A stretch of 64,000 bases of DNA from Hyphomonas adhaerens MHS-3 (lineage in GTDB: Bacteria; Pseudomonadota; Alphaproteobacteria; Caulobacterales; Hyphomonadaceae): NCBI RefSeq assembly GCF_000685235.1, contig NZ_ARYH01000002.1, forward strand, positions 248,001-312,000. Reading direction: 5' to 3'. The translations under genes were made by a program, and so were the position numbers. Below the pieces are notes generated by a model that saw only the letters and a program-made list of their open reading frames with translations, had not been told where the DNA came from and ran no database searches. This document shows, piece after piece, positions 3,832 through 47,998 of the stretch (the first letter of the stretch is position 1; each line of letters begins with the position of its first letter).

Positions 3832-5748
3832 ATGCTCGCGCTGATGAAACGCCTGACCCAATCGATTCTAGGCAAGTTCATTGCCATGATCATCATTGCA
3901 GGTATGGCGTTCTGGGGCGTGGACCAGATTTTCAACCAGGTGCGCAACGGTCTTGGCTCCGATCTCATGGCCGCAGGTAAGTCGTCCGTGACGGTCGAAG
4001 GGTTCGATCGCCGGATCGAAGTGATGCTGCGCAACGTCAACCAGCAGAACGACAACCCGATTACCAAGGACCAGGCCGTTGAGCGCGGTATGGTGGATCA
4101 GGTCTTCCAGCTGGAGCAGTCTCAGACCACGATCCTGGGTTTCGCTTCAAAGATCGGTGTCGCGCCGTCCACGGACGCCGTACTGGCGGAGCTCCGGAAG
4201 CAGGACGCCTTCAAGAACCCGCTCACAGGCGAGTTGGATCTGGCGACCTATCAGCGCGTGCTGGCACAGAACCGGTTCTCGCAGGCTGAGTATGAGGACC
4301 AGGTGAAGAGCGACCTGACGCTGCAAGCGCTCCAGGCAGGCACGATCGCAGGTTTGATTTCCCCGGATGTCCTGAAAGCCGTCCAGGCGCGTTATCTGGC
4401 TGAATCCCGTGATGTCGCCTGGTTCATTCTGGACGCTGCAGATGTCCCGAAGCCGGACGCGCCAACTGAAGAAGAGGTTCTTGCATTTTACAATGAGAAC
4501 CTCGATGCACTGAAGCAGCCTGAGCGGCGCGGAATTGATCTGGTGAAAGTGTCCGCAGACGATTTCCTGAGCCAGGTTGAAGTGACCGAGCAGGAAATTG
4601 CAACGATCTACGAAGCCAGCAAGTCGGAGCGCTTTTCCGAGCCTGAACAACGGACCTACGTCGAATTGATGTTCGATTCCCGCGATGCCGCCCGGGATGC
4701 ATTCGGCGCCCTCGCCGGCGGGGCAGACCCCTCCACGCTCCAGGGCGTTGTTTCCCGCGACTCCAAAACATCCTTGGCAGAGGATGTCGACGACCAGCTG
4801 CTGCGTGATGCGATGTTTGGACCGGGCAAGCAAAGCGGTGCCCTTTTCGGCCCCAAGGACATGGGGGATGGCCGCTGGCTTATTGCCCGGCTTGTTTCCG
4901 TCCAGCCGGGCGCCGTCTTTCCTATCGAAGACGTTTCCGAAGAAATCCGCACCGACCTGGCACGCGAACGGGCCACCCTGCTCCTGTATGACAAGCTCGA
5001 GGCGCTTGATCGATCGATCAATGCAGGCTTTGACCTCGGGCAGATCGCCAGCGAACTTGGGGTGCCGGTCATTTCATTCGAACCGGTCGATCAGAACGGT
5101 TATACGGAAGACGGCTTGCCGATGATGGGCCTGCTCGATGCGGGCGACGCTTTCAAGCAGGCGTTCACCATGAACGTGAACGACACGTCGAACCAGTTCA
5201 TCAAGGACGATGTGACCTATGTGATCTCCACCCGCAAGATCGTCCCTCCTTCGACGCCGGACTTTGACGAGGTGAAAGACGATGTGCGGCAGGCCCTGAT
5301 CTTGCGCAACGAAGGTGAAGCTGCCCAAACCATGGTGAAGTCCATCAAGGACCGGATTGAAAGCGGCGCCTCTTCGCTCGAGGCAGAAGCGCGTGCAGCG
5401 AAGGCCGAGCTCGAAACCCCGCCCTCGTCCGTAACCCGCATGAGTGCTGAAGACAGCGGCCTGCCGAATTCGGCGATTGGCGGCATCTTTTCCGGTAAAC
5501 CGGGCGAAGTGTTCACCTATCCGAACCGCACCGGCGACAAGTACATGATCGTCCAGCTTAAAGCCGTGAATGATCCCTCTGCAGCGGACCTCGCAGCCGC
5601 TGACCCGAGAGCCTCGAGCGCGCTCGTCACGTCCCTGGATTCTGATCTTGCAGCGGCAATGCAAACCGAGATGGCTGGCGCTGTGAAGCTCAAGGTGAAT
5701 TCCGGAGCCTATAACGCCTACAAAGCCTCCATCACGACAGACCAATGA
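3832..5748 (+). CDS. PpiD/SurA-type periplasmic folding chaperone (peptidylprolyl isomerase family)
   Basis: A membrane-anchored periplasmic chaperone of the SurA-N/PpiD class that is thought to assist newly exported proteins. The 638-aa protein has one N-terminal membrane helix (GKFIAMIIIAGMAFWGV, about residues 13-30), an N-terminal chaperone region, a middle parvulin-like region and a long C-terminal helical domain. An alternative ATG lies 12 bp downstream. It overlaps trpE by ATGA, so it is translationally linked to trpE-trpG. PpiD-trpE adjacency is common in alphaproteobacteria. Parvulin catalytic residues are not obvious, so enzyme activity is uncertain. Confidence 0.85.
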   Translation: MLALMKRLTQSILGKFIAMIIIAGMAFWGVDQIFNQVRNGLGSDLMAAGKSSVTVEGFDRRIEVMLRNVNQQNDNPITKDQAVERGMVDQVFQLEQSQTTILGFASKIGVAPSTDAVLAELRKQDAFKNPLTGELDLATYQRVLAQNRFSQAEYEDQVKSDLTLQALQAGTIAGLISPDVLKAVQARYLAESRDVAWFILDAADVPKPDAPTEEEVLAFYNENLDALKQPERRGIDLVKVSADDFLSQVEVTEQEIATIYEASKSERFSEPEQRTYVELMFDSRDAARDAFGALAGGADPSTLQGVVSRDSKTSLAEDVDDQLLRDAMFGPGKQSGALFGPKDMGDGRWLIARLVSVQPGAVFPIEDVSEEIRTDLARERATLLLYDKLEALDRSINAGFDLGQIASELGVPVISFEPVDQNGYTEDGLPMMGLLDAGDAFKQAFTMNVNDTSNQFIKDDVTYVISTRKIVPPSTPDFDEVKDDVRQALILRNEGEAAQTMVKSIKDRIESGASSLEAEARAAKAELETPPSSVTRMSAEDSGLPNSAIGGIFSGKPGEVFTYPNRTGDKYMIVQLKAVNDPSAADLAAADPRASSALVTSLDSDLAAAMQTEMAGAVKLKVNSGAYNAYKASITTDQ

Positions 5749-7172
5749 GCCGCGCAAAACTTATCGTTCGCCGGCGGATCGGGGATGTCGAAACACCCGT
5801 AGGGGCCATGTTGAAACTGGGTGTCGATGCACCCGGCAGTTTCCTGTTCGAGTCGATCGCCGGTGGAGAGCGGCTTGGACGATACTCCTTCATCGGTGGC
5901 GCGCCGCAAGTCTGGTTCCGGATTTTGGACGGAGTTCCAGAAACGGCAACGACAGCAGACTTCTCCGACGCCAAACGCATGGACGGCAGCCCTGTCGAGG
6001 CTCTGCGCGCTTTCGTGGAATTCGCCCGGGCAGAGACGGATGAAGACCTGCCGCCTATGGCGTCCGGCGCATTCGGCTATGTCGGCTATGACATGATCCA
6101 ACACGTCGAGCCTGTGGATATCACCAAGCCCGAAGCATTGAATGTGCCCGAAGCGCTTTTGGTCATTCCAAAAGTAGTGATCGTATTTGATCACATCTAT
6201 CAGGAATTGCTTCTGGTCGGCCGGGTCGAGAACGGCAACGAAGACGATATCAACCGCCAGCTGGATGAGGTTGAGAAACAGCTCCAGTCGCTGCCCATGT
6301 TCCCTCCGGCGGACCAGGCAGCAGAACCGGTAGAGCTTACTTCGAATACGAGCCAGGACCGATATTTCGAAATCGTCGACAAATGCCGTGAATACATCAA
6401 GGCAGGCGACATTTTCCAGGTTGTTCCAAGCCAGCGCTTTTCCACGCCGTTCAACAAAAAATCGATCAGCTTCTATCGTGCCCTGCGTCGGCTAAACCCG
6501 TCGGCTTTCATGTTCCACATGAATTTGGGAGATGTGCGGCTGGTTGGGTCCAGTCCGGAAATACTGGTGCGTGTCCGGAACGGCCGGGTTGCCATCCGCC
6601 CCATCGCAGGCACAAGGCCTCGTTCCGGTGATCCGGTGGAGGATGCAAAGCGCGCTGAAAGCCTGCTGAACGATCCAAAGGAAATTGCTGAACACCTGAT
6701 GTTGCTGGATTTGGGCCGCAACGATGTCGGACGTGTCGCCGCCTATGGGAGCGTTCAGGTCACGGAGCAATTTATTGTCGAACGCTACAGCCACGTGATG
6801 CATATCGTCAGCCACGTCGAAGGTGACCTGCGTGAGGGGCTGGACGCGGTGGATGCCCTGTTCGCGGGCTTCCCGGCGGGCACGGTTTCCGGCGCCCCCA
6901 AGATCCGTGCAATGCAGATCATCGACGAGATGGAAACAAATGCGCGCGAAATCTATGGCGGCGCAGTCGGGTATTTCGGCTGGAACGGCGATCTCGATAC
7001 GTGCATCGCGCTGCGTACCGCTGTCCTGAAAGACGGCAAGCTGCACATTCAGGCGGGCGGCGGGGTCGTGCTCGATTCCGATCCGCAATACGAATATGAC
7101 GAGACCCAGCATAAGGCGGGCGCCCTCAAGCGCGCCGCTGAGCTGGCCGCAGCGTACGAGTTCGACCAATGA
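5745..7172 (+). CDS. trpE: Anthranilate synthase component I
   Basis: Makes anthranilate from chorismate with ammonia supplied by TrpG; the first committed step of tryptophan synthesis. The 475-aa protein contains the feedback-inhibition region near the N-terminus (LFESIAGGERLGRYSFIG, with the LLES-like element) and the chorismate-binding C-terminal domain with PIAGTRPR, DLGRNDVGR and GGAVGYFGW. It starts inside the stop of the PpiD-like gene and ends in an ATGA overlap with trpG, so no leader-peptide attenuator can precede it directly. Confidence 0.96.
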   Translation: MSRAKLIVRRRIGDVETPVGAMLKLGVDAPGSFLFESIAGGERLGRYSFIGGAPQVWFRILDGVPETATTADFSDAKRMDGSPVEALRAFVEFARAETDEDLPPMASGAFGYVGYDMIQHVEPVDITKPEALNVPEALLVIPKVVIVFDHIYQELLLVGRVENGNEDDINRQLDEVEKQLQSLPMFPPADQAAEPVELTSNTSQDRYFEIVDKCREYIKAGDIFQVVPSQRFSTPFNKKSISFYRALRRLNPSAFMFHMNLGDVRLVGSSPEILVRVRNGRVAIRPIAGTRPRSGDPVEDAKRAESLLNDPKEIAEHLMLLDLGRNDVGRVAAYGSVQVTEQFIVERYSHVMHIVSHVEGDLREGLDAVDALFAGFPAGTVSGAPKIRAMQIIDEMETNAREIYGGAVGYFGWNGDLDTCIALRTAVLKDGKLHIQAGGGVVLDSDPQYEYDETQHKAGALKRAAELAAAYEFDQ

Positions 7173-34256: not shown

Positions 34257-35825
34257 GTGAGATGGCAAGAAGTGTCCTGGATGATGAACGTGTGCTCCAC
34301 GATCATTGAAAACCCGCGCCTCCCGGTGAGCCTGGTGCTTTCCGAGAATGAGGTAAAAGCTGTTGCATCTGCAGAAGGCGCCTCAGGCGACACTGCCACG
34401 CTTCCCCCAATTTATCCGGAATGGCTGGGTGACCGGGCTTTCTCGGCAACCCATGGCGCACGGTTCAATTATGTTGTCGGTGAAATGGCGCGCGGCATCG
34501 CCACGCCACGTATGGTTGTCGAGGCGGTGCGCGCTGGCTGTTTGGGGTTTTATGGTAGCGCCGGTCTTTCTCTCGATGAGATCGAGCGCGGTCTCCGCGA
34601 AATTAAAGCCGGTTTGTCCGATACGCAGATCAGCTGGGGAGCCAACCTGATCCACACACCACAGCAGCCCGGATATGAGGCCGACGTCGTGGATCTGTTC
34701 CTGCGTGAAGGCGTACGGCGGGTATCAGCCTCCGCCTATATGCGCCTGTCTCCGGAAATCGTGCGGTATACGGCTCTCGGGCTCCAACCTGGCCCGAATG
34801 GCGCGATTATTCGGACCAACCACGTATTTGCGAAGGTTTCTCGCGCAGAAGTCGCTGAGCAGTTTCTCGCCCCGGCCCCAGCGGCCATATTGAACGCACT
34901 CGTGGCGTCTGGTGCGATTTCGGCAGAACAGGCCCAAATGGCCGCTCGGGTTCCCGTTGCGGCCGAGATCACTGCAGAAGCAGACTCAGGCGGGCACACA
35001 GACCGGCGAGCGGCCGCGCCGCTGTTTACCTCCATTTGTGCCGCCCGGGACCGCATCGCGTCCAAAACGGGCATTGACCCTGACACGATCCGGATCGGAC
35101 TGGCCGGAGGCATCGCCACACCTCACGCCGTCGCCGCGGCATTCAGCATGGGCGCCGCCTATGTTCTGACCGGATCCATAAATCAGGCGGCTGTTGAATC
35201 CGGTCTCTCCCTGCCCGGCCGCCAGCTGCTTGCAAAAGCTAGCCCTGCGGACGTGGTCATGGCTCCCGCCGCCGACATGTTCGAGCAAGGGGTGGAGGTG
35301 CAGGTGCTAAAACGCGGGACTCTGTTTGCCATGCGCGGAAAGAAACTGTTCCAGTTTTACCGCTCCGGCGCCGCCTTCGAGACGCTTGATCCAAAGGACC
35401 AGGCCTGGGTGGAAGATGTCCTGGGCGAGCCGTTCGAAGCCGCCTGGGAGTCGACACGGGACTATATTCGGACGGTCAATCCCAAAGAGGCCGCCCGTGC
35501 AGAGGCGGACGGCAACAAGCGGTTCGCCCTGGTCGCGAGACGTTACCTTTTCTCAGGTGCCCAGCTGGCGCGCGAAGGTGATCCTGATCGTCTCGCCGAC
35601 TACCAGATATGGTGCGGCCCCGCACAGGGCGCGTTTAACGAATGGGTTGCAGGAACTTTTCTGGAAGACATTTCCAATCGTACGGTCCGTCAGATTGCAT
35701 GGAACCTCATGGAAGGCGCTGCGCGTATCACCCGCGCAGCCCAGCTTCGGGCTGTTGGCGCCGCGGTTCCACCCACGGCATTCAATTTTACCCCACAACA
35801 ATTCGCTGAATCGGAGGCTGCGTGA
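34257..35825 (+). CDS. PfaD-like trans-acting enoyl reductase (FMN, 2-nitropropane-dioxygenase fold)
   Basis: Reduces the enoyl intermediates of the Pfa-type synthase in trans. The 522-aa protein has the PfaD-specific barrel: FNYVVGEMARGIATPRMVVEA, GCLGFYGSAGLSL, EADSGGHTDRRAAAPL (FMN/active-site region) and GLAGGIATPHAVAAAFSMGAAYVLTGSINQA. The frame opens with GTG; ATG codons at 34281 and 34284 are equally plausible starts. Its stop overlaps the next gene as TGATG. The order (pfaD first) differs from the classic pfaABCD order in gammaproteobacteria. Family assignment is firm, product unknown. Confidence 0.9.
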   Translation: MRWQEVSWMMNVCSTIIENPRLPVSLVLSENEVKAVASAEGASGDTATLPPIYPEWLGDRAFSATHGARFNYVVGEMARGIATPRMVVEAVRAGCLGFYGSAGLSLDEIERGLREIKAGLSDTQISWGANLIHTPQQPGYEADVVDLFLREGVRRVSASAYMRLSPEIVRYTALGLQPGPNGAIIRTNHVFAKVSRAEVAEQFLAPAPAAILNALVASGAISAEQAQMAARVPVAAEITAEADSGGHTDRRAAAPLFTSICAARDRIASKTGIDPDTIRIGLAGGIATPHAVAAAFSMGAAYVLTGSINQAAVESGLSLPGRQLLAKASPADVVMAPAADMFEQGVEVQVLKRGTLFAMRGKKLFQFYRSGAAFETLDPKDQAWVEDVLGEPFEAAWESTRDYIRTVNPKEAARAEADGNKRFALVARRYLFSGAQLAREGDPDRLADYQIWCGPAQGAFNEWVAGTFLEDISNRTVRQIAWNLMEGAARITRAAQLRAVGAAVPPTAFNFTPQQFAESEAA

Positions 35826-38800
35826 TGGCCAAACAGACCGCTGCGCCTGTCGCTATCGTCGGCCTGGGCGCCGTATTTCCCGGACGTGGCGATGTAACGG
35901 GTTTCTGGCGGGACCTGTTCGAGGGCCGGGACCTGATCAGCGACGTGCCGCCCAGTCATTGGCTGGTAGAAGACTATTATGATGAAGATCCGAAAGCCAA
36001 AGACCGGACCTATGGCCGGCGTGGCGGTTTCATCAATCCCCTCGCATTTGACCCACTTTATTTTGGCATTCCCCCCAAAGCCATGGAGGGCACCGACACG
36101 GCGCAGCTTCTGGCGCTGATCGCAGCGCAAATGACTCTGGAAGACATCGAGCGCGACTCCGGCGGAATGATCGACAAGTCCCGCACGAGCATCATTCTCG
36201 GCGTTGCGTCCGCTACTGAAATGACCGCTCACATGGCGGGCCGCCTTCAACGCCCGGCATGGGTAAATGCGATGCGCCAGGCCGGACTGCCGGAAAGCCA
36301 GGTTCAGGATATCGCGCGCCGGATCGAAGATCATTACGTCGATTGGCAGGAAGCCACCTTTCCCGGCCTGCTCGGGAATGTAATTGCCGGGCGTATTGCA
36401 AACCGTTTCGATCTGACCGGCAGCAATTACGTGACAGATGCGGCTTGCGCCTCCAGCCTTTCGGCCTTGCAGATCGCACTCCATGAATTGCGTTCTGGTG
36501 ACAGCGACACAGTCCTGACGGGAGGTGTCGATGCGCTGAATGATATCTTGATGTACATGTGCTTCTCCAAGACCCCGGCCCTATCGGTTTCTGGAGACTG
36601 CCGTCCGTTTTCGACCCGCGCAGACGGCACTATGCTGGGTGAAGGTGTCGGCATGCTTGCCTTACGGCGGCTAGACGACGCCGAGCGCGATGGAAACAAG
36701 ATCTACGCGACGATCAGAGGGCTAGGTGGCGCCTCTGATGGCAAAGGAACGGCGATCTACAGCCCGGTTCCCCATGGACAAGCCCGCGCCTTAACGCGAG
36801 CATATGAGCAAGCCGGTTACGATCCGTCCACGGTGGACCTTGTTGAAGCCCACGGCACCGGCACGAAAGCTGGCGACAAAGCCGAAATCGAAGGCCTTCA
36901 TATGGTCTTTGGCGAATATGCAAGCGAAGCTCCCTGGTGCGCGGTCGGGTCAATCAAAGCCCAGATCGGCCACACCAAAGCGGCCGCAGGTTCCGCGAGC
37001 CTGATTAAGGCCGCCCAGGCCCTTAGCCGCAAAGTTCTGCCGCCAACGATAAAAGTAGAAGAGCCGGCAGACGCCATCAAGAATAGCCCCGTGTTCTACC
37101 TCAATACTGAAGCTCGGCCCTGGATCTCACCCAAAAAACGTCCCCGCCGGGCCGCAGTCAGTTCCTTCGGCTTTGGAGGCAGCAATTTCCACGTCACGCT
37201 GGAGGAATACACCGGCCCGAATGCCGTAAAACCCTGGCGATGCCTTCCTGCGGAATTGTTTCTCTTTTCCGCCGATACGCCAGCGGCGCTCGCAACCCAA
37301 ATTGAACCTTTTCAAACAAGTCTTTCGGAAGATGAATTCGCGTATCGTGCCTCGCAAACCCACGACTCGTTTGATGTGACCGCGCCGATCCGCGCCGCAA
37401 TCGTTGCCCAATCACCGGAAGAACTCGCAGCAAAGGCGACGAGCGTCATTGAAGCCCTGCAGCGTGGTGAAGTAGCCAACCGGCCCATGAAAATGGGTTG
37501 CCACGTTTCTTTGGATCCGCCCACGGATGGAAAAGTTGCGTTCATGTTTTCCGGGCAAGGCAGTCAGTATGTCGGTATGGGAGCAGACCTCGCTATGGTC
37601 TTCCCCGATGCAAGAGCTGCTTGGGACGAAAGCGCTGGTCACAAGCGAGCGGGCGAACTGAAGCTTCACAAACTCGCATTTCCGCCTGCCGCATTTGATC
37701 AAGTCGAACACGGTGACCAGACCGACCGCCTGAAAGCCATGGAGCATGCCCAGCCCGCAATCGCAGCCGTCGCATTGTCACATCTCGCTTTGCTGGCCCG
37801 GGCTGGGGTGCAGGGTGACATGGCCGCCGGCCACAGTTTCGGAGAAATCATGGCCCTCCATTATGGGGGATCGATGAACACCACCGGCGCGTTGTCGGCG
37901 GCAGTCGATCGCGGCGCCCTGATGGCCGAAGCCGCCCAGTCCAGCTCAGGCTCCATGATGGCCGTTCAGGCAGCGTCGGAAGAGATCGGGCATATCATCT
38001 CCCGCTTCAGTCCGGATCTCGTGCTAGCCAATGACAATGGGCCAAGCCAAGTTGTGCTTTCAGGGCCGACTCAGACAGTGAACAGCGCCGTAGAAGCTTG
38101 TACACAGGAAGGGTTAAAAGCGCGGCTACTGCCTGTGGCGACCGCCTTCCATTCAAAGATCGTTGCGTCTGCGGTCGATCCGTTCGAAGCCGCCCTCAAA
38201 AAATTGCGCCTGCGCAAGCCGACCCTCCCGGTGTATGCCAACGCAACGGCAGAACCCTACACTTGCACTGGCACACAAATGCCGGAGGAAGTTGCCCGTC
38301 AGCTCGCCTCACCGGTGCGATTCAGGGAACTCGTCGAACGTATGTATGCGGATGGGGCCCGAATTTTCGTGGAAGTTGGACCCGGCTCTGTGGTGACAGG
38401 ACTGGTCGACGATGTACTCGGCTCAAAACCACATAAATCCTTTGCGCTCGACAATAAGCGAGCAAACGGAGTGACTCAATTCCTGTCGACACTTGGGGCG
38501 CTCGCTGTCTCTGGCGTCCCTGTCGATTTCGCGACTCTGCTCGAAGATTTGCCAGCTGCCCTCCCTCGGAAAGCCCCACCGAAGCATGCAGTCATGATTT
38601 CGGGAGGTAATTACGGTAAGCCTTATCCCCCACCGGAGGGCGCTGCGGGTAAGGCGCCCCCAAACCCCGAACGACCCATACCTGCCACGACCAATTCCGC
38701 CGGGCCTCAGCCCCCAGCTGCAGCCAGCACTCACAGTTCCAATCCTGCCACTCCCTCATCTACCTCCAGTCCTCAGGAAACAGTCATGCCGGATTCATCC

Positions 38801-39799
38801 TATTCGTCGTTCCCTTCCATGCCGTCCTATGAACCGTCCGGATCAAATGGTGAGACTCCAGCCGAACGCGTCCTGATGGAAGTTTCCCGGCGTCATTCCG
38901 ATTTTCTGAATATGGCTTCGTCGGCACATACCGCATACTTGAATACCGTATCGCAAGTCATGGGCGGCGCACTTGCATACCAAGCAGAACCTGCCAGAGC
39001 ATTGCCCAATCCTGCACCTGCTCAGCCCCCCGCCATATCACCGACGGCCCGTCCTTCTGAACCGGTTGTGGCGGACGCGCCTGCTGCAAAGGCACCTACA
39101 CCTGCACGCCCATCAGCGCCTGCTGTAGGAAAGCCCGCACAAACCAGGCAGACACCTTCAGCATCATCCTCGCCGACAATGGCACCGGCACCTGCAAACC
39201 CAGTTGCAGAAAAACCCGCTCCCGCCAGAAAACCATCAAGTACGGATGCGATCGCGCTCGTTCGCGGTATTATTGCAGACAAGACTGGTTATCCGGAAGA
39301 CATGCTGGACCCGGACATGGATCTGGAAGGCGAACTCGGCGTCGACTCAATCAAGCAAGTCGAAATCCTGTCGACCATTCGGGAACAACTTCCAGAGTTG
39401 CCGGAGATCGATCCGGAACGCCTCGTGGAACTGCGCACAATCGCGGCGATTGCAGAAATGGTTTCAGGATCCAGCACCGCGCCGCAACCCGTCCGGACGG
39501 AACCGACTGAACCTGTTGCAGCGACCTCCGCCTCTCTAACGGAAGACGCCACCTCTGCCCCAGTCAATGGCAAGATCACCCCCGATATCGTTCGCACCCT
39601 GATTGCTGACAAGACCGGCTATCCGAGCGACATGTTGGAGGATGACATGGATCTGGAAGGCGAACTCGGGGTCGACTCGATCAAACAAGTCGAAATCCTG
39701 TCCGCGCTCCGCGATCAACACCCCGATCTGCCGGAAGTCGATCCTGAAGTATTGGTAGAACTCCGCACGATCAGGGCAATTGCTGATTTTTTTGCCTGA
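35825..39799 (+). CDS. PfaA-like PUFA/secondary-lipid synthase: KS-AT-ACP-ACP
   Basis: An iterative polyketide-type acyl-chain synthase, 1324 aa from the TGATG start. The ketosynthase (about 1-455) has Cys208 in DAACASS and the two His in EAHGTGT and GHTKAAAG. The malonyl-CoA acyltransferase (about 560-880) has the GQGSQY entry and Ser671 in GHSFGE. A Pro/Ala/Ser-rich linker (about 930-1140) follows. Two near-identical ACPs carry phosphopantetheine Ser1175 and Ser1285, each in GELGVDSIKQVEIL. Classical PfaA continues into a KR; here the frame stops after ADFFA, at a T7 run, and the KR is in the -1 frame. Confidence 0.92.
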   Translation: MAKQTAAPVAIVGLGAVFPGRGDVTGFWRDLFEGRDLISDVPPSHWLVEDYYDEDPKAKDRTYGRRGGFINPLAFDPLYFGIPPKAMEGTDTAQLLALIAAQMTLEDIERDSGGMIDKSRTSIILGVASATEMTAHMAGRLQRPAWVNAMRQAGLPESQVQDIARRIEDHYVDWQEATFPGLLGNVIAGRIANRFDLTGSNYVTDAACASSLSALQIALHELRSGDSDTVLTGGVDALNDILMYMCFSKTPALSVSGDCRPFSTRADGTMLGEGVGMLALRRLDDAERDGNKIYATIRGLGGASDGKGTAIYSPVPHGQARALTRAYEQAGYDPSTVDLVEAHGTGTKAGDKAEIEGLHMVFGEYASEAPWCAVGSIKAQIGHTKAAAGSASLIKAAQALSRKVLPPTIKVEEPADAIKNSPVFYLNTEARPWISPKKRPRRAAVSSFGFGGSNFHVTLEEYTGPNAVKPWRCLPAELFLFSADTPAALATQIEPFQTSLSEDEFAYRASQTHDSFDVTAPIRAAIVAQSPEELAAKATSVIEALQRGEVANRPMKMGCHVSLDPPTDGKVAFMFSGQGSQYVGMGADLAMVFPDARAAWDESAGHKRAGELKLHKLAFPPAAFDQVEHGDQTDRLKAMEHAQPAIAAVALSHLALLARAGVQGDMAAGHSFGEIMALHYGGSMNTTGALSAAVDRGALMAEAAQSSSGSMMAVQAASEEIGHIISRFSPDLVLANDNGPSQVVLSGPTQTVNSAVEACTQEGLKARLLPVATAFHSKIVASAVDPFEAALKKLRLRKPTLPVYANATAEPYTCTGTQMPEEVARQLASPVRFRELVERMYADGARIFVEVGPGSVVTGLVDDVLGSKPHKSFALDNKRANGVTQFLSTLGALAVSGVPVDFATLLEDLPAALPRKAPPKHAVMISGGNYGKPYPPPEGAAGKAPPNPERPIPATTNSAGPQPPAAASTHSSNPATPSSTSSPQETVMPDSSYSSFPSMPSYEPSGSNGETPAERVLMEVSRRHSDFLNMASSAHTAYLNTVSQVMGGALAYQAEPARALPNPAPAQPPAISPTARPSEPVVADAPAAKAPTPARPSAPAVGKPAQTRQTPSASSSPTMAPAPANPVAEKPAPARKPSSTDAIALVRGIIADKTGYPEDMLDPDMDLEGELGVDSIKQVEILSTIREQLPELPEIDPERLVELRTIAAIAEMVSGSSTAPQPVRTEPTEPVAATSASLTEDATSAPVNGKITPDIVRTLIADKTGYPSDMLEDDMDLEGELGVDSIKQVEILSALRDQHPDLPEVDPEVLVELRTIRAIADFFA

Positions 39800-39831
39800 G
39801 GGGCGGCGCGCCTGAACTGGCGGTCCGTCCC
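39787..39831 (+). other. Candidate -1 ribosomal frameshift signal joining ACP and KR
   Basis: T TTT TTT at 39787-39793 is in the correct phase of the KS-AT-ACP frame for simultaneous -1 slippage. The zero-frame stop TGA follows at 39797-39799. A hairpin GGGGCGG (39800-39806)/CCGTCCC (39825-39831), 7 pairs including one G-U, starts 6 nt after the heptamer, an effective spacing. The -1 frame is open from 39787 straight into the KR. A homopolymer sequencing error or a true mutation would look the same. Confidence 0.55.
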
Positions 39832-39870
39832 GGCGCAGCAGACGCAGGGAATGTTCCTTATCAGAATGCC

Positions 39871-41247
39871 GTGCGGGCACTCAATTCTGTGCGCATTGCT
39901 TCGTATGACGGAACCACATCCCTGGAGCATTTGGGCGAAATTGAAATCACCAACGCTGCTCCGGACTACGCCGAAGCAATACGGCAAGCGATTGAAGCAT
40001 TCGGCGGCAACGCCCGGATTGTCTCCGCGCCGCACAGCGCAGGCTTGTGCCTGCTCACGGAGGGTCTGACTGAGGGCCTCCTTGCCAATCGGCACCATAT
40101 GGCGCTCCAGGCGATCCTGTCTGCCGATGGAAATATGCGCGTTATCGCACTCGACTGTGCATCGGCGCCAGCATTATCGGATATCGGCGGTATTTCCGGT
40201 CTGTGCCGTTCATTCCGGATCGAACGCCCGGGGACACGATTGACTTCTTTGTCTATATACGCGCCCGCAGATGTTGATGAAACCGCTTCACGGGTCGCTC
40301 GTTCCCTGGACCTGCCTGACAGTGATTACATGCTTCATACTGATGAAATCCGGCAGGACGTTCTGGGAGATGGCCTTCTTCCTCCGCCAGCCCATGAAGG
40401 CGCCAGCACATCACCTGTCTGGTTGATCTCAGGGGGCGGTCGAGGCGTAACGGCCAATTGTGCAGTTGAGCTCGCCAATCGAACTGGAGGAAGCTTCATC
40501 CTCCTGGGCCGCTCCGACATGACTGAATGGCCTGACTGGTTGGAGCCGGAAACGGATCTCAAAGCACTCCGGAGCGCTCTGGCAAAAAATTCGACCCGTC
40601 CCGGGACGCCGAAGAAGCCAGTGGAAATCGATCGCTTTGCACGCAAGCTTCTGGCGGGTGCAGAAATTGCCTCTACGATAAAATCTATAGAAACAGCCGG
40701 CGCGTACGCCCGCTATGTTCAGGCAGACATTGGAGATCGAGCAAGTCTTCGCTCGACGCTGGCCACACTCGTAAAGGAAGTGGGCGCTGTCACAGGTCTG
40801 GTTCACGGAGCTGGCGTTCTGTCAGACGGACTTGTCAGTACGCTCGATCTGCAAAGCTTCGAGACTGTTTTTGCCCCCAAAGTCATGGGATTGGAAATCA
40901 TTCTGTCTTGTCTCGACAAACGGTCTCTCAGCCACATCGCGCTTTTTTCATCAGCTTCCGCCGTATTCGGCAATGAGGGACAGGCGAATTATGCGGCGGC
41001 CAATGCTTGGCTGAATAATGTCGCAATCCAACTCGCAACCAGTATGCCTGACACACAAGTGAAGTCATTCTGCTGGGGACCCTGGCATGGCGGAATGGTC
41101 GATGATGCTCTGGCTCGTATGTTCACGGAACGCGGAATAGGTCTAATCACCAGGCAAGAGGGCGCCCGCATCTTTGCAGATCAGCTCCTGAATTCACCTC
41201 ATGATCAAGTGCGTTTCGTTGTCGGCGACGAATGGGGCGATCAATGA
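39871..41247 (+). CDS. PfaA-type ketoreductase (KR) domain protein
   Basis: Reduces the beta-keto group of the growing chain with NADPH. It is 458 aa from a GTG with no ribosome site; the frame is open without any ATG from 39787. Residues 1-170 form the pseudo-KR half. The catalytic half has the nucleotide motif SGGGRGVTANCAVELA, LLGRSDMTEWPDWLEPE typical of PUFA-synthase KR, GAGVLSDGLVSTLD, and the Ser/Tyr/Asn set in FSSASAVFGNEGQANYAAANAW. If frameshifted, ORF fusion yields one 1807-aa KS-AT-ACP2-KR protein, the usual PfaA layout. It overlaps the next gene by ATGA. Confidence 0.88.
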   Translation: MRALNSVRIASYDGTTSLEHLGEIEITNAAPDYAEAIRQAIEAFGGNARIVSAPHSAGLCLLTEGLTEGLLANRHHMALQAILSADGNMRVIALDCASAPALSDIGGISGLCRSFRIERPGTRLTSLSIYAPADVDETASRVARSLDLPDSDYMLHTDEIRQDVLGDGLLPPPAHEGASTSPVWLISGGGRGVTANCAVELANRTGGSFILLGRSDMTEWPDWLEPETDLKALRSALAKNSTRPGTPKKPVEIDRFARKLLAGAEIASTIKSIETAGAYARYVQADIGDRASLRSTLATLVKEVGAVTGLVHGAGVLSDGLVSTLDLQSFETVFAPKVMGLEIILSCLDKRSLSHIALFSSASAVFGNEGQANYAAANAWLNNVAIQLATSMPDTQVKSFCWGPWHGGMVDDALARMFTERGIGLITRQEGARIFADQLLNSPHDQVRFVVGDEWGDQ

Positions 41248-44200
41248 GCCATCTCGAACCTGTCGCGATTATTGGACAGGGGTGTGTTCTGCCGGGTGCG
41301 AATTCTCCGGATGAACTCTCCAAAATCGTGATGGAGCAGAAAGTCGTTTACGGCCCAGTGCCCTCGGCAGAACTGGGATTATCTGGAATTTCTTCAAACT
41401 CACATTCGTTTGTATCAGGACGCGTCAAAGGGTTTGAGCGTATTTACGATCCTGACCGCTTCCGGCTGAAGTCCGTTCGCGCCGAGGAATTAGATCCCAC
41501 CTGTAGCTGGTCACTGAATGCTGCACTTGATGCGTGGAAGGATGCATCCAGCCCAAAAGTGAAGCGGTCGGCTATCGGGGTATTTGTTGCAAACCTGTCC
41601 TACCCATCCGCCGGACATGTAGAATTTGCCACAAAGACATGGCGGGGTGAAAAACCACCGCCTGCGCATTTGGTATTTAACTCCGCCCTTCCGTCACGTC
41701 TGATAGCTGAAGCATTGCGCTCAAGCGGGCCCTGCCTGTCGCTCGATGCGGCGTGCGCCTCTTCGCTATACGGAATCGATATTGCCTGCCGAAAACTGCA
41801 GGCAGGACAGATCGATTGCGCCGTCGTCGCTGGCGTAAATGCGGCTGACAATCTGATCCTCCACATCGGATTTGAGGCCCTGAATGCGCTAAGCCCGACA
41901 GGAAGGTCCCGGCCGTTTGTGCAAGGCGCCGATGGCCTGGTGCCATCTGAGGGTGCCGCCGCGTTGGTCCTGAAAAGGCTCAGCGATGTGGAACCGGGCG
42001 AAAAGGTCTACGGCATCATTCGTGGTAGCGGGCTCTCGAATGATGGGCGGCGCAAAGGCTTGCTTGCTCCCGCGGCCGACGGGCAAGCTGATGCCATGCA
42101 GCTGGCACTGGAGAGCGGCGCCATTGATCCCCTCACCATCCAATATCTGGAATGTCATGCGACCGGCACATCCGTTGGTGATGGCGTGGAAGTCTCGTCG
42201 ATCCGGTCTGTGTATGCGGACCTTGAAAACTTGCCTGTAGGGTCGCTCAAAGCGAACACCGGACATCTGATCACAGTCGCCGGCCTCGCAAGTGTTTTAA
42301 AACTTACCGGCGCCATGGCACAGGAAACTCTGCCCCCGACACCGGTAGATGGTGAAATTCTGAAGCAACTCCAGAATTCTAATCTGAACGTTCAGTCCTC
42401 ACAGGCCTCGTGGAAGACTGAAAGCGGACCAAGACGCGCCGCGATCAGCAATTTCGGGTTCGGCGGCAACAATGCTCACCTCATCCTGGAGCAGCACCAG
42501 CCTTCCGCACGACCAGGGCGAAATAAAGCCTTCAAACAGCGCCCTGCCCCGGATGTCGTCATCTGCGCAGCAACGCTCATGGCCGGCACCGATCGCACAA
42601 CCGAAGCGGTTCTGCGACGGGTCATGAACCAGCCGATCAATGCTGCGGGCAAACTGAAAGAAATCGGCGCGAACGCCGCAAATGCGAGGACACCTCCCTT
42701 AGACCTGACACAGGCCGAACCACATCAATTAGCAATCCTGTCGACCGTCAGTGAAGCGCTGAACCGTGTGTCGCCGGTTGAGAGCAGTCAGACGGGTGTC
42801 TTTGCGGGCATGGCCTGCGCCGCGGACTCCGCACGCTGGGCGCTCAGAGAGAGAGTCTCTTCCGACACAACTCGATCGCCTGACGATATCGCTCCGAAAC
42901 TTGATGCGGCGATGGTGCTCGGCGCTATGGCCAACATGACAGCGAACAGGATCACGTTCGGCCGGGACATCAGGGGGATGGGATATTCCGTCTCGGCGGG
43001 GTCAGCGAGCGGGCCTGCCGCTCTGGATCTCGCGATTGATGCACTCGTCTCTGGCCGACTGTCGATGGCGATTGTCGCCGCGGCCGACTTCGCGACGGAG
43101 CCTGTCCGCGCGAAAGCACTGCAGACTCTCAATGGGATAGACAATCCGGGCGACGCGGCTGCCGCGCTTGTTCTCAAGCGCCGTGAGGATGCCGAAGCCG
43201 CAGGTGATCCGATACTCGCGTCGCTCAAGTCCATTGAGTGGAAGAACTCGAAAGCCCACCAAGAGGAAGATCTGTTCGCATCAATCTACGGCAAAGCGCC
43301 GGATGCAGACGCCTTGGTTCGGATTGCCCTCGATCTGCTTCTGAACGCCCACAGCCACAAGCCGACCCCAGTGGGCGCTGTCCCGACCCTCTCGTCTCCT
43401 CAGAAAAAAATCCGGATATCCGTTCCAACGGGCCTCACAAACACCGGCGCAGTTGTTTCGCTTGCGCCTGCACCGCCATTGGTGGTGCCAGATCCTTTAA
43501 GACCGACGCCGTCCCTGTACCACGCAGCAGCTGGCAGCCCGCAAAAACTGGCGGAGAAGCTGCAGGCAAGGCATGAAGGTGGCCGAGGTAAATGCCGGAT
43601 AGCCATCGTTGCCCCAGACCAAAGCCAGATGGACACGCTGCGGGAAGCTGCAGCGCGACAGCTTTCAAAAGGCCACTCACCGGAAGGGAACGGAATCTAT
43701 TTCGGTGAAGGCAAGCCGGAGGGGGAGCTTGCCTTCCTGTTCACCGGATCAGCCGCCGTTTATCCGCGAATGGCAAGACGCCTTCTTATGGCGTTTCCGG
43801 ACATCCGGAAGAAACTGGCAAAGCTCTCTCGTGCAGAAGACATTGCTGCGCTTCTGTCTCGTGCGAGCCTTTCCGAATTTGAACAATTGTGCGCAGGCAC
43901 TCTCGTTAGCCAAGCGCACGCCGCCCTGTGGCTGGACATCCTCAAGGTAAAACCTGACGCAGCCATCGGCCTCTCACTCGGCGAGTCCAATGCCCTGTTT
44001 TCCTTTGGATACTGGGAAGACCCCGGTGCACTGCTTGATGAGATTTCCGATGCCGCGATGTACGAGCGTCATATCGGCGGTGAATTCGAAACGGCCAAAC
44101 AGGCCTGGGGACCCAACGTCCCCTCCGACTGGACCAATTGGCGGCTGCAGGCGCCGGTCAGCAAAGTAAAGGCTGCCCTTCCGCGATACCCAGGTGTCGA

Positions 44201-47200
44201 GATCACCATCATTTATTCCGATGAAGACTGCATGATCGGCGGGCCTGCGGAGTCTTGCCGCCAGCTGTGCGAAGAATTTGGCAAACGCGCTGGTGTGAAA
44301 ATGAACCAGCACCTGATTGTGCACGCTAAGGCCATGCAGCCGTTTGCCGACACGTGGCGTCGTTTACACACACGGGAAGTACATTCTGGGTCGGGTGTGC
44401 GGTTGTACGCCAACGCCATTCATGGCGCCTATGAGCCTGAGACGGATGTTGTCGCGGACATGCTGACGCGGCAAGCCGTCGATACGGTGGATTTCCCCAG
44501 GACGATACGTCAGGCTTGGGCGGATGGTGTGCGGACCTTCCTGGAACTCGGCCCGCGGGACACGCTAACGGCCAGCCTTTCCAAGACATTGAAAGATAAG
44601 CCTTTCAAGGCCATTGCGACGGACAGGATCGAAATGTCGGACCTTGGCCAGATCGCCCATGCTGCGGCGTTTCTTTATGCCGACGGCCGGGAAATCGATC
44701 TGACCCCGCTCCTTGAAACGCTCACTGCGGCAAAGAAAAACGAGGCCGCCCCCGCCGGCCAATGGAACGCAAAACGACCGGTGCCTTACCCCATGCCAAA
44801 AATCGTCAAAGCCCCAGCACGCCCTGTCCATGGCGGACTACCCCCTGCGCCCAAGCTGCGCATGCCGGACTATGCCATGACCATACCGTGCCAGCAGACG
44901 ACCAAACCGAGCCTTCCGCCGGAACCTGTTCCGGGAAAATGTGCCGAACCTCCGCAAAAAGTGGTCCGCGGCACCACCGCTCTGCGTCCGCGCACACCGA
45001 CCGGCCCAAAGCGCGACCGCCTGGCTGTCGAAGCGTCGACGCGAGGCAAGATGTCCGAGTTCTTCGGTCCGGCCTTCAAGGCCCAGGACGCGTTCAGCCG
45101 TCAGGTGCGCCTGCCGGCACCCCCGCTTTTGCTGGTCGACCGGATAACCGGCATTGATGCGGCCCCGGCCGAAGAAGCGGGCGGCGTGATCTGGACTGAA
45201 ACGGACCTGACGAACCACAAGGACTTCACGCATGACGGCCGCATACGTCCCGGCCCGCTAATCGAATGCGGCCAGGCCGACCTCACGCTGATTGGCTGGA
45301 TGGGCGCCGATTTTCGAAACAGGGATGAGCGAGTCTATCGCCTGCTGGGTTGCGAAATCACGTTCCACGAAGGCGGCTTGCCAAGCAGCGACGACACGCT
45401 GAACTTCCAGATTGAAATTACCGGGCATGCCGAATTGGGCGGTGTACGAATGTTCTTCTTCCAGTACGACTGCCGCACGGAAGACCGACTGGCGTTCTCC
45501 GTTCGCAATGGGCAGGCAGGCTTCTTCACCGACGAAGAGTTGGCCAACAGCAAAGGCGTCATCTGGGATGCCGCGAAGAATGCCCCGCCGACACCGGACC
45601 CTGTCGTCTTCGAATCCCAACGCGTCAGCGCCAAGCGGAGGTTTTCCGAGGATGACGTGAACGCCTTCCGGAAAGGCGATGCATTCGCCTGCTTCGGAGA
45701 GGGCTTTGAACTCTGCGCTGCCCATTCCAATCCACCACATATTCCGGATGGAAAGCTGGCGCTATTTGAAGATGTCATCGCATTTGACCCGCAAGGCGGA
45801 CCATGGAAGCGCGGTTATCTCAAAGCTCGCGCAGCCACCCCCGCCTCCACCTGGTTTTATGACGGGCACTTCCACAACGACCCCTGCATGCCCGGCACAT
45901 TGATGGCGGAGGCGGCGGTTCAGGCTCTGGAATTTTATGCGGCCGCCGTCGGCCTGACGGTCGAAAGGGATGGGTATGTCTTCGAACCTGTTCCGGAACA
46001 CACTGCGAAGTTCGTATGTCGTGGACAAGTCATCCCGGATAAGGACCATGAAGTGACCTATGAGGTCTTCATTGATGAAATCATCGATGGAGAGACCCCG
46101 GAAATCTACGCCTCCCTGCTTGCCCGATCTGACGGGCACAAAGTCTTTCACTGCCCGCGCTTTGGCATCCGCCTGCGCCGAAACTGGCCTGCACCACGCG
46201 TCGATGCCCATCCGCTGCGGATCGGCCCGGAGCGCGAAAGCCGCGGCGACCAGGCGGCGCTGCTCGATTGCGCAAATGGGGCCCCTTCCGCTGCGTTTGG
46301 CGACATGTACCGGCCATATGACGATCAGGGCAATGTCCCACGCCTGCCGCAACCGCCCTATCACTTCATCTCCCGCGTCACCTCCGTCACAACCCGTCCT
46401 GCGGAGGAAACGCTTGGCGCAACGATGACGGCCGAATACGACATCCCCTCCGATGCCTGGTATTTCGATGACAATCTGAATGGCACCATGCCGTTTGCCA
46501 TTCTCTGCGAGATCGCCCTGCAACCATGTGGATGGCTCGCAAGCCATTCCGGTTTTGCACTCGTGGGCACGCTCCGGTTCCGGAACCTTGAAGGTGACGG
46601 GTTCCTTCACATGGAAGTGGACCGGAACGACGGTATGCTGAAGGTCCGGAGCACGCTGACGAGCATCTCCAAGGTCGGGCCGATGACGCTCGTCTCGTTC
46701 GATGTCGAGGTTATCACCGGTGATGGCAGAAAAGTGCTGGACCTCAAGACACAGTTCGGCTTCTTCCCGCCCTCTTCTCTGGTTCGCCAGGCTGGCTTGC
46801 CGGCAAAGCCCCACTTCAGTGAGGCTTTCGACCTGCGCCCGACCGCAATGCAGATCGACATTCAGGCGCCGCACGCCTCCCGCAGAATGCAGATGATTGA
46901 CGAAATCGACTTCTGTGATCCGGATGGCGGTGAGGCTGGCCTTGGCTTGATCCGCGCACAACAGCATGTGGATCCATATGCATGGTATTTCAAGGCGCAC
47001 TTCTATCAGGATCCGGTCCAGCCTGGTTCCCTCGGTCTGGACGCCATGGTCCAGGCACTGACACAGCTTGTCTGGAAAAAGGGCCTGCACAAGGGCACGA
47101 AGCGCCCGCACCTGACCACGCTCGCGCCAAACGCGCCCATGAAGTGGAGCTATCGCGGACAGGTTACGCCTGAGCGGAAAACCGTGACGAGTGTCATGGA

Positions 47201-47324
47201 GATCCTGAGTATCGAGGACCGTGGCGAAGACCTGCTTATAACCGCAAGAGGCAGTCTGTGGCGGGACGGTCTTCGCGTTTATGAAGTTGGCCCCATGAGC
47301 GTGTCGCTCAAAGATCTCGGCTAA
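41244..47324 (+). CDS. Giant Pfa synthase subunit: KS-CLF-AT-DH-DH
   Basis: A 2026-aa multidomain enzyme that elongates and dehydrates the chain. An active KS (about 5-420) has Cys171 in DAACASSL and HATGTS. A chain-length-factor-like KS (about 430-700) has SVSAGSASG in place of the Cys motif. A PfaB-type acyltransferase (about 830-1160) has Ser911 in GLSLGES. After a Pro-rich linker come four hotdog units forming two FabA-like dehydratases: GRIRPGPLIECGQADL, GHFHNDPCMPGTL (His1542), FDDNLNGTMPFAIL and KAHFYQDPVQPGSL (His1919). PfaB is normally a separate protein; here it is embedded between CLF and DH. The ATG overlaps the KR stop; another ATG lies 12 bp upstream. Confidence 0.92.
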   Translation: MSHLEPVAIIGQGCVLPGANSPDELSKIVMEQKVVYGPVPSAELGLSGISSNSHSFVSGRVKGFERIYDPDRFRLKSVRAEELDPTCSWSLNAALDAWKDASSPKVKRSAIGVFVANLSYPSAGHVEFATKTWRGEKPPPAHLVFNSALPSRLIAEALRSSGPCLSLDAACASSLYGIDIACRKLQAGQIDCAVVAGVNAADNLILHIGFEALNALSPTGRSRPFVQGADGLVPSEGAAALVLKRLSDVEPGEKVYGIIRGSGLSNDGRRKGLLAPAADGQADAMQLALESGAIDPLTIQYLECHATGTSVGDGVEVSSIRSVYADLENLPVGSLKANTGHLITVAGLASVLKLTGAMAQETLPPTPVDGEILKQLQNSNLNVQSSQASWKTESGPRRAAISNFGFGGNNAHLILEQHQPSARPGRNKAFKQRPAPDVVICAATLMAGTDRTTEAVLRRVMNQPINAAGKLKEIGANAANARTPPLDLTQAEPHQLAILSTVSEALNRVSPVESSQTGVFAGMACAADSARWALRERVSSDTTRSPDDIAPKLDAAMVLGAMANMTANRITFGRDIRGMGYSVSAGSASGPAALDLAIDALVSGRLSMAIVAAADFATEPVRAKALQTLNGIDNPGDAAAALVLKRREDAEAAGDPILASLKSIEWKNSKAHQEEDLFASIYGKAPDADALVRIALDLLLNAHSHKPTPVGAVPTLSSPQKKIRISVPTGLTNTGAVVSLAPAPPLVVPDPLRPTPSLYHAAAGSPQKLAEKLQARHEGGRGKCRIAIVAPDQSQMDTLREAAARQLSKGHSPEGNGIYFGEGKPEGELAFLFTGSAAVYPRMARRLLMAFPDIRKKLAKLSRAEDIAALLSRASLSEFEQLCAGTLVSQAHAALWLDILKVKPDAAIGLSLGESNALFSFGYWEDPGALLDEISDAAMYERHIGGEFETAKQAWGPNVPSDWTNWRLQAPVSKVKAALPRYPGVEITIIYSDEDCMIGGPAESCRQLCEEFGKRAGVKMNQHLIVHAKAMQPFADTWRRLHTREVHSGSGVRLYANAIHGAYEPETDVVADMLTRQAVDTVDFPRTIRQAWADGVRTFLELGPRDTLTASLSKTLKDKPFKAIATDRIEMSDLGQIAHAAAFLYADGREIDLTPLLETLTAAKKNEAAPAGQWNAKRPVPYPMPKIVKAPARPVHGGLPPAPKLRMPDYAMTIPCQQTTKPSLPPEPVPGKCAEPPQKVVRGTTALRPRTPTGPKRDRLAVEASTRGKMSEFFGPAFKAQDAFSRQVRLPAPPLLLVDRITGIDAAPAEEAGGVIWTETDLTNHKDFTHDGRIRPGPLIECGQADLTLIGWMGADFRNRDERVYRLLGCEITFHEGGLPSSDDTLNFQIEITGHAELGGVRMFFFQYDCRTEDRLAFSVRNGQAGFFTDEELANSKGVIWDAAKNAPPTPDPVVFESQRVSAKRRFSEDDVNAFRKGDAFACFGEGFELCAAHSNPPHIPDGKLALFEDVIAFDPQGGPWKRGYLKARAATPASTWFYDGHFHNDPCMPGTLMAEAAVQALEFYAAAVGLTVERDGYVFEPVPEHTAKFVCRGQVIPDKDHEVTYEVFIDEIIDGETPEIYASLLARSDGHKVFHCPRFGIRLRRNWPAPRVDAHPLRIGPERESRGDQAALLDCANGAPSAAFGDMYRPYDDQGNVPRLPQPPYHFISRVTSVTTRPAEETLGATMTAEYDIPSDAWYFDDNLNGTMPFAILCEIALQPCGWLASHSGFALVGTLRFRNLEGDGFLHMEVDRNDGMLKVRSTLTSISKVGPMTLVSFDVEVITGDGRKVLDLKTQFGFFPPSSLVRQAGLPAKPHFSEAFDLRPTAMQIDIQAPHASRRMQMIDEIDFCDPDGGEAGLGLIRAQQHVDPYAWYFKAHFYQDPVQPGSLGLDAMVQALTQLVWKKGLHKGTKRPHLTTLAPNAPMKWSYRGQVTPERKTVTSVMEILSIEDRGEDLLITARGSLWRDGLRVYEVGPMSVSLKDLG

Positions 47325-47998
47325 ACTGCCAGAGCCCTGCTCAGAACAAGCTGGCCCACCTGACGGGTCTCGACAGACAGGACCAACGCATCATGTTCCA
47401 TGGTGAACTGATCCGAGTGGCCCGCGATATAGGTCGCCGGAAGCTTGATCCGAGGTGCACCGCCTTTTAGGCCTGTGCCACCCGCCTTGAGGATAGCCTC
47501 CTTAGCGGTCCAGCATCGGAAGAAGGGTTCCAGCCCCGGACGTTCAGCCAAGGCAACGCGAATAGTGGAGGCCTCTTCGGGCCGGGCCAGCATCTTCAGC
47601 ATCGGCTCCCAACTGACAGGCCGTATGAGTTCCAGATCCACGCCGACAGGTCCGGTGCGGGACAGGGAAAGCGCATTCCATCCTTCGCTGTCCGAAAAGC
47701 TGATTTCGACATTCGGGAAACCTGGCAGGCTGGGTTTACCCAAATTATCATGGGCAATCTCCACGCGGTCAGGTGCGCATCCGAGCAACTCGGAAAGCAG
47801 GTGGCGCCGCTCCGCCAGACTGGCCGAGAGCATGTTTTGTTTAACTGGTGAGACAAGGCGCGCGACGCGGGCCGTCTCCGCCTCTGACAGAACGCCCGGG
47901 TCTATCGCCCGCTGAACGGATTTCCAAAACCACGTCCCTTCAGCCCCACGCTGTGGCGGTCCGCCCCCTCCAATGGAATGCACAGTCTCAAGCATCAA
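47321..47998 (-). CDS. Sfp-type 4'-phosphopantetheinyl transferase (PfaE-like)
   Basis: Loads the phosphopantetheine arm from CoA onto the ACP serines, turning the synthase on. The 225-aa protein has the magnesium-binding GVDLELI and the CWTAKEAILKAGGTGLKGG motif (WxxKEAxxK), plus an upstream GKPSLPG. It is on the opposite strand and overlaps the synthase stop by 4 bp, so it needs its own promoter in the 48.0-kb gap. The second in-frame Met is 3 bp downstream of the start. Confidence 0.9.
   Translation of the reverse strand: MMLETVHSIGGGGPPQRGAEGTWFWKSVQRAIDPGVLSEAETARVARLVSPVKQNMLSASLAERRHLLSELLGCAPDRVEIAHDNLGKPSLPGFPNVEISFSDSEGWNALSLSRTGPVGVDLELIRPVSWEPMLKMLARPEEASTIRVALAERPGLEPFFRCWTAKEAILKAGGTGLKGGAPRIKLPATYIAGHSDQFTMEHDALVLSVETRQVGQLVLSRALAV

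Follow-up and report, generated by a model that had tools for sequence, protein, structure and literature searches.

The window analysed here, a stretch of 64,000 nt from the 3.67-Mb genome of Hyphomonas adhaerens MHS-3 (GCF_000685235.1, NZ_ARYH01000002.1, positions 248,001-312,000; G000:C2:248001-312000), carries an operon for a polyunsaturated fatty acid (PUFA)-type lipid synthase, composed of pfaD, pfaA and a pfaC-like gene, and this report concerns a putative programmed -1 ribosomal frameshift signal in pfaA, at the seam between the regions encoding its acyl carrier protein (ACP) and ketoreductase (KR) domains. The pfaA zero frame (35825-39799, plus strand) encodes 1324 amino acids from ATG 35825 to a terminal TGA, in which Pfam profiles identified a ketosynthase (KS), an acyltransferase (AT) and two PP-binding stretches, while the KR domain (Pfam KR, 3.7e-32) lies in the -1 frame (39787-41247, plus strand). 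Against the PfaA profile TIGR02813, the zero frame scored 976 bits (best stretch, profile 7-916) and the KR frame 241.5 bits (profile 1997-2266), each alone below the cut-off of 1010.1; the two scores cover different parts of the profile, and their sum would exceed it. Upstream on the same strand, pfaD (34257-35825; enoyl reductase) matched TIGR02814 with 528.8 bits (cut-off 449.25), and its stop overlaps the pfaA ATG by 1 base. Downstream, the pfaC-like gene (41244-47324, plus strand) encodes a KS, a KS-like domain, an AT-like domain below cut-off and a FabA-like dehydratase in two stretches; its ATG 41244 overlaps the KR stop as ATGA, and ATG 41232 is likewise in frame. Convergent with it on the minus strand stands a 4'-phosphopantetheinyl transferase (PPTase) gene (47321-47998; PF01648, 39.2 bits, cut-off 25; NF042922, 3.3e-18, under the cut-off of that model). 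The order KS-AT-ACP(n)-KR with pfaD and pfaC-like neighbours, by which PfaA is recognised, was found at this locus.

The zero frame, spanning 35822-39799, ends in GCT GAT TTT TTT GCC TGA, in which the heptamer TTTTTTT (39787-39793, plus strand) is read T|TTT|TTT, the phase required for -1 slippage, and the TGA (39797-39799) stands one codon 3' of it. The KR frame is closed by a TGA (39784-39786) directly 5' of the heptamer and is open from 39787 to 41247 (486 codons), joining after two Phe codons in the long product. By arithmetic on the frame coordinates, the products from ATG 35825 would be a short, KR-less protein of 1324 amino acids and a long one of 1807. A hairpin, the presumed stimulator, is predicted at 39800-39831 (plus strand), 6 nt past the heptamer, with a 7-bp outer and a 4-bp inner stem; its folding energy is -24.2 kcal/mol (z -3.2; as stable a fold arose in 3 of 200 shuffles). 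The first possible KR start past the slip, GTG 39871, has no Shine-Dalgarno pairing (0.2 kcal/mol). The first-pass annotation of this DNA, which had proposed programmed -1 frameshifting here, placed the heptamer in its slippery phase, the TGA and the hairpin correctly to the base; its 7-bp hairpin corresponds to the outer stem, to which the inner stem is now added, its -1 frame open into a KR lacking a ribosome site at GTG 39871 was confirmed, and its 1807-residue KS-AT-ACP2-KR product beside a shorter KR-less form agrees with the frames.

The sequence TTTTTTTNNNTGA is present twice in the 3.67-Mb genome; the copy outside pfaA coincides with the T run belonging to a stem that resembles a terminator, and this second T7GCCTGA (L001) was dismissed as a frameshift site on account of that position. 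A 24-base pattern of the signal, scanned over the genome contigs of GTDB r220, gave 71 matches, of which 42 lay at this synthase with stems of -14.2 to -29.3 kcal/mol; the other 29 lay elsewhere, with stems of -1.8 to -11.8 kcal/mol and -1 frames of only 2-185 codons.

Homopolymer runs are error-prone, and a single genome with a sequencing error or a decaying pseudogene would look alike. The break was compared among relatives, which are Hyphomonas (genus g1) and Henriciella (g3). Within the genus, 29 of 31 genomes matched the KR strongly, in frames open for 243-619 codons, and the remaining two (G001, G021) gave only weak dehydrogenase matches; across the family Hyphomonadaceae, 57 of 105 genomes contain a KR at E <= 1e-30, the longest KR frame again being 619 codons. 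The window and 56 loci from 55 other KR genomes (two loci being parts of G045; G014 left out) were compared at the seam. After exclusion of L055, L081 and L087 (contig cut or partial), 54 loci, one per genome, were readable, and all 54 carry a heptamer of seven T (T7) or six T and a C (T6C), then one codon, then TGA, TAG or TAA. The -1 route into the KR is kept in 53 of these 54 genomes: the KR was seen directly in the -1 frame in 51 loci, the excerpt of L076 ends before the KR and its counterpart L123 shows an open -1 frame, and L057, although interrupted at a further point 5' of the second ACP, has the element intact and the -1 frame open. The same break in 54 genomes and in two gammaproteobacterial metagenome-assembled genomes (MAGs) described below, the T6C variants, the three stop types and the substitution pattern of the KR leave an artefact or decay a practically negligible chance, and we regard it as ruled out by this conservation. 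A T8 misread as T7, or a fixed mutation, which the first-pass annotation had named as the rival explanation, is at odds with 54 genomes that use all three stops; among relatives the T run is preserved in phase and one codon from a stop, as is the hairpin, and this comparison lends support to its frameshift proposal.

Among 53 junctions (L057 excluded), the heptamer is T7 in 36 and T6C (T TTT TTC) in 17, preceded by GAT in 52 and GGT in one; TTT accounts for 383 of 1499 Phe codons elsewhere in the pfaA frames compared. The stop, always one codon past the heptamer, is TGA in 20, TAG in 18 and TAA in 15. On a quick KR tree (51 rows including two from Granulosicoccus, first 45 residues dropped, length 18.98 substitutions/site; L057, L064, L076, L085, L088 and identical proteins excluded), at least 10 switches between stop types and at least 4 substitutions at the final heptamer base are required, and no change of the stop to sense occurred in this sample. 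At the stop position, the -1 frame has an NTA codon in 31 of 51 sequences (one of them TTA; L057, L064 and L076 excluded here and from the start-codon and Shine-Dalgarno counts), and elsewhere in the KR frame NTA makes up 6.5% of the ATN, CTN and GTN codons. Because the zero-frame stop is kept at the cost of NTA codons in the -1 frame, termination itself appears to be selected, and the KR-less form is therefore probably not a mere by-product.

Folding of 47 distinct junction sequences, from 52 rows with L057 and L064 excluded, predicted a stem that begins at the first base past the stop, 6 nt after the heptamer, in all 47. The stems averaged -24.4 kcal/mol; 1800 random 42-nt windows taken from these genes averaged -10.3 (sd 3.9), and 46 of the 47 stems lay under the 5% quantile of that background. 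Pairs 1-6 of the outer stem are standard in 46 or 47 of the 47 and pair 7 in 37. The junctions of Henriciella fold in a different inner register. Covariation was examined by aligning the 35-nt class of hairpin without gaps (39 rows, two of them from Granulosicoccus; 37 distinct); 10 distinct 32-nt hairpins, the window's own included, stand outside this alignment. In the 35-nt class, 80.3% of stem cells are paired, whereas shuffles give 72.0% and slid controls 51-61%; changes on both sides are seen in 10 of 14 pairs, a number that 4 of 500 shuffles reach, and there are 65 doubly changed cells against 27.2 in the shuffles, which take no account of kinship among the rows. Taken with the junction counts, this comparison shows well that the heptamer, its phase, the spacing, the stop and the covarying stem are under selection.

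The KR was likewise examined for constraint. Its nonsynonymous rate (dN) was lower than the synonymous rate (dS) in 8 of 8 pairs (window vs L033, from G018: dN 0.102, dS 0.583), while the same DNA read in the other two frames gave dN > dS, and the Ser, Tyr and Asn that we take to be catalytic are retained in the KR alignment. As judged from this comparison of substitutions, the KR is kept as protein. Codons 4-40 past the slip also look constrained (dN 0.05, dS 0.22; window vs L033, few sites).

Several observations weigh against programmed frameshifting as the source of the KR. In G003 (Hyphomonas sp. L-53-1-40; L064, L107), the heptamer and stop are kept and the -1 route is lost: a deletion removes the 3' base of the hairpin and shifts the KR to another frame, and the -1 route closes after 15 codons. 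For the stem, the number of further pair types is within the shuffle range (62 of 500 shuffles reach it), RNAalifold alone, given all rows, retains nothing beyond the outer 6 bp, and conservation of the outer stem is partly shared with protein constraint, the -1 frame encoding an invariant RP there. Upstream of the heptamer, the Shine-Dalgarno duplex averages -3.0 against -2.0 (sd 2.4) kcal/mol, which is not convincing as a stimulator. Finally, in 35 of 51 sequences the KR frame extends 5' of the heptamer without a stop, for up to 439 nt, and an in-frame ATG is present in some relatives 18-32 codons past the slip; in L033, the nearest relative, it is at codon 25 with a pairing of -5.7 kcal/mol, and five loci have one at codon 18, unpaired. 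G003 is also, as a natural broken copy, a ready comparison strain.

The open upstream frame and the in-frame ATGs, together with the existence of GTG 39871, would suit two separate proteins, with the KR made by termination-reinitiation or from an internal start, like split pfaA1/pfaA2 genes; pfaA split into two genes has been described for cluster Types D and H (PMC3098273), and a split pfaA on a Streptantibioticus plasmid record has its own AGGAAG and ATG before the KR. Within 25 nt of the stop, however, an ATG occurs in 0 of 51 sequences and any start codon in 3, no KR start common to the whole family was found, and in 16 of 51 the KR frame cannot be entered from upstream, being closed immediately before the heptamer. 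A separate KR also does not predict an in-phase slippery heptamer, and the apparent constraint on codons 4-40 likewise counts against it. We consider this explanation very unlikely.

Programmed transcriptional slippage, in which RNA polymerase would stutter at the T run and insert an extra U, so that part of the mRNA has the fused frame, needs no X_XXY_YYZ phase, adjacent stop or covarying downstream hairpin, and the hairpin is still untranscribed while the polymerase is on the T run. One added U would likewise yield the KR frame, and the run is T7 in 36 of 53 junctions. Furthermore, genes of Escherichia coli are depleted of UUUUUUU in each of the three frames, and transcriptional slippage has been proposed as one cause (PMC4066793). 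The runs cited for such slippage are, however, longer than 8 T (PMC3711429), a length that neither T7 nor T6C reaches; the T6 followed by C in 17 of 53 junctions and in both Granulosicoccus copies is too short by that figure. An origin of the fused frame in the transcript accordingly appears highly improbable.

Programmed -1 ribosomal frameshifting, by which pfaA would yield PfaA with and without the KR and PfaC would be coupled to the long form, is therefore the interpretation we favour from the sequence comparison, with a probability of about 0.88. The heptamer is in phase in 53 of 53 junctions, with the structure and the open -1 frame following as described above; in E. coli, H_HH.U_UU.Y motifs, a class that includes U_UUU_UUY, are among the most efficient, and stimulators generally begin 5-8 nt downstream of the heptamer (PMC4066793). 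A ribosome translating pfaA would reach U_UUU_UUU with tRNA-Phe in its P and A sites and be held by the hairpin, whose base lies six nt downstream. Because both codons specify Phe, one tRNA can re-pair in both sites; a fraction of ribosomes would slip back one base, both tRNAs re-pairing with UUU, and continue through the hairpin into the KR, while unslipped ribosomes would read one further codon and stop. One gene would give KS-AT-ACP-ACP (1324 amino acids) and KS-AT-ACP-ACP-KR (1807 amino acids) in a ratio set by slippage. The ribosomal nature of the slip, its rate and the use made of the KR-less form are what we infer from these features; that form would most likely supply extra KS-AT-ACP subunits in mixed dimers, which would then have fewer KR domains, and the arrangement may serve dosage control of the KR and PfaC.

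The coupling to PfaC is suggested by the position of its start. In 50 of 51 loci (L076, L085 and L088 excluded), the pfaC start is 5 nt or less from the KR stop, the two forming ATGA in 33; L057, the 51st locus, also reads ATGA by eye. Because ribosomes ending at the zero-frame stop never reach the pfaC start, chiefly shifted ribosomes would arrive there; PfaC output would be tied to that of long PfaA, and frameshifting likely sets both.

A covariance model trained on the 39 alignment rows, many of whose matches are therefore by construction, was applied to the family. At E <= 0.01 it gave one match per genome in 55 of 105 genomes, that in the window being 39787-39831. Matches outside the training set were those of 11 genomes with the 32-nt version (window, E 1.5e-5) and of G003, G030 and G035. 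All 55 genomes are among the 57 with a KR, the exceptions, G014 and G071, having contigs that start inside or just before it, and the model had zero matches in the 48 family genomes without a KR. Three records titled Acidobacteria or Candidatus Sulfopaludibacter (L095, L103, L104) contain a Hyphomonas-type pfaA with counterparts in the window's genus (G010, G070 and G023), and their titles look mislabelled.

The element also occurs in the two MAGs of Granulosicoccus, a gammaproteobacterium (L120:520-567; L097, minus strand, 6142-6189), as T TTT TTC GGC TAG followed by a 35-nt stem, with 517-518 codons open in -1 and then pfaC. On a second KR tree, built with the same rows excluded and with outgroup rows, the Granulosicoccus rows are nested in Hyphomonadaceae beside L078 (94/79), and the rows with the element form one group (88/52). 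With an outgroup thinned by eight rows (L173-L179, L185), this modest support suggests a single origin of the element and its transfer between classes.

Outside the family, the KR is mostly encoded in a long fused frame. The order and class searches gave 3 and 4 KR relatives, all 7 in open frames of 1512-2762 codons. In the phylum search, queried, like one of the kin searches, with a KR alignment (A1) that holds L120 twice, 25 of 398 genomes had a KR match; 17 of the 22 non-family matches lie in frames of 906-2951 codons, those of G725 and G803 are cut by contig ends, and those of G730, G764 and G820 (contig C16) are split, with the KR in -1. Twelve plasmid records held KR relatives, none spanning 80% of the query; of three examined, besides the Streptantibioticus record, one from Azospirillum has a single long frame, and a Persicobacter psychrovividus plasmid (L206:6335-6520) has a split pfaA whose KR lies in -1 with no ATG near the stop, the one start being a GTG located 11 nt past it, for which reinitiation and recoding are both possible.

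The three split cases from the phylum search are leads, each seen in one genome. In G764 (L189:4700-4725), the ACP/KR seam of a PfaA-like gene is a ten-A run, C and TAA, with the KR in -1, possibly an independent frameshift. In the second synthase of G820 (C16; L188:5560-5700), a ten-A run likewise marks the seam; the KR is in -1, and about a dozen codons separate the run from the zero-frame stop. In G730 (L187, reverse complement, about 4585-4610), C CCA AAG stands in slippery phase, the zero-frame TAG follows 15 nt later, and the KR is in -1 with a long overlap. KR matches were found in 6 of 74 kin genomes for G764, in 1 of 48 for G730 (its own, no other of the 48 genomes searched in its order having one) and in 1 of 1 for G820, and none of the three seams was found in a kin genome besides their own, in a check where G803 was cut at a contig end and long open frames were the sole basis for the seams of G894, G947 and G974. 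That a slip setting the KR-plus/KR-minus ratio and the PfaC dose is a recurring design in PUFA-type synthases, having arisen more than once on other runs (A10 in G764 and G820; CCCAAAG in G730), is a tentative and rather doubtful proposal.

The signal itself is of a standard -1 type. Most bacterial programmed frameshifting belongs to mobile elements, as a section title of the GeneTack survey also indicates (PMC3711429). As in dnaX and the IS911-type transposases, an in-phase X_XXY_YYZ heptamer is followed by a hairpin a few bases downstream, with two products from one start (PMC3711429, PMC4066793). Unlike in those systems, the gene here encodes a PUFA-type megasynthase, a catalytic KR domain is gained through the shift, the heptamer is U_UUU_UUY rather than A_AAA_AAG, there is no clear upstream Shine-Dalgarno stimulator, and the next gene starts on the stop of the shifted frame. 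With PfaA of PUFA and secondary lipid synthases (TIGR02813), the locus shares the order KS-AT-ACP-ACP-KR, pfaD upstream and an adjoining pfaC-like gene and PPTase; it differs in being encoded in two frames, with a KR-less form expected. The split clusters of Type D (Psychroflexus) and Type H (Agrobacterium vitis, Saccharopolyspora) resemble it in their divided pfaA and fused pfaBC, and Type D also in a KR apart from KS-AT-ACP; whereas these are described as two genes, here there is no conserved KR start and a frameshift signal lies at the seam.

The newness lies in the gene class, for which no earlier report was found. The main text of the GeneTack survey (PMC3711429) mentions neither Hyphomonas nor ketoacyl or ketoreductase, the terms looked for are absent from the first 300,000 of the 475,107 characters of a 2016 review (PMC5009743), and a 2026 survey of hybrid PUFA-synthase clusters (PMC13291983) does not use the word "frameshift" and mentions one split pfaA. 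A full-text literature search, with supplements and most subscription papers outside its range, showed, among the papers listed, no report of frameshifting in a fatty-acid or polyketide megasynthase.

If programmed frameshifting does operate at this seam, frame-by-frame annotation would break the enzyme into two pieces and overlook its complete form throughout a bacterial family, and the genes, moved to another host, could yield little complete enzyme. The domain stoichiometry of a megasynthase could then be set at translation, and, should the design prove to recur, it would provide a translational dial on the lipid made.

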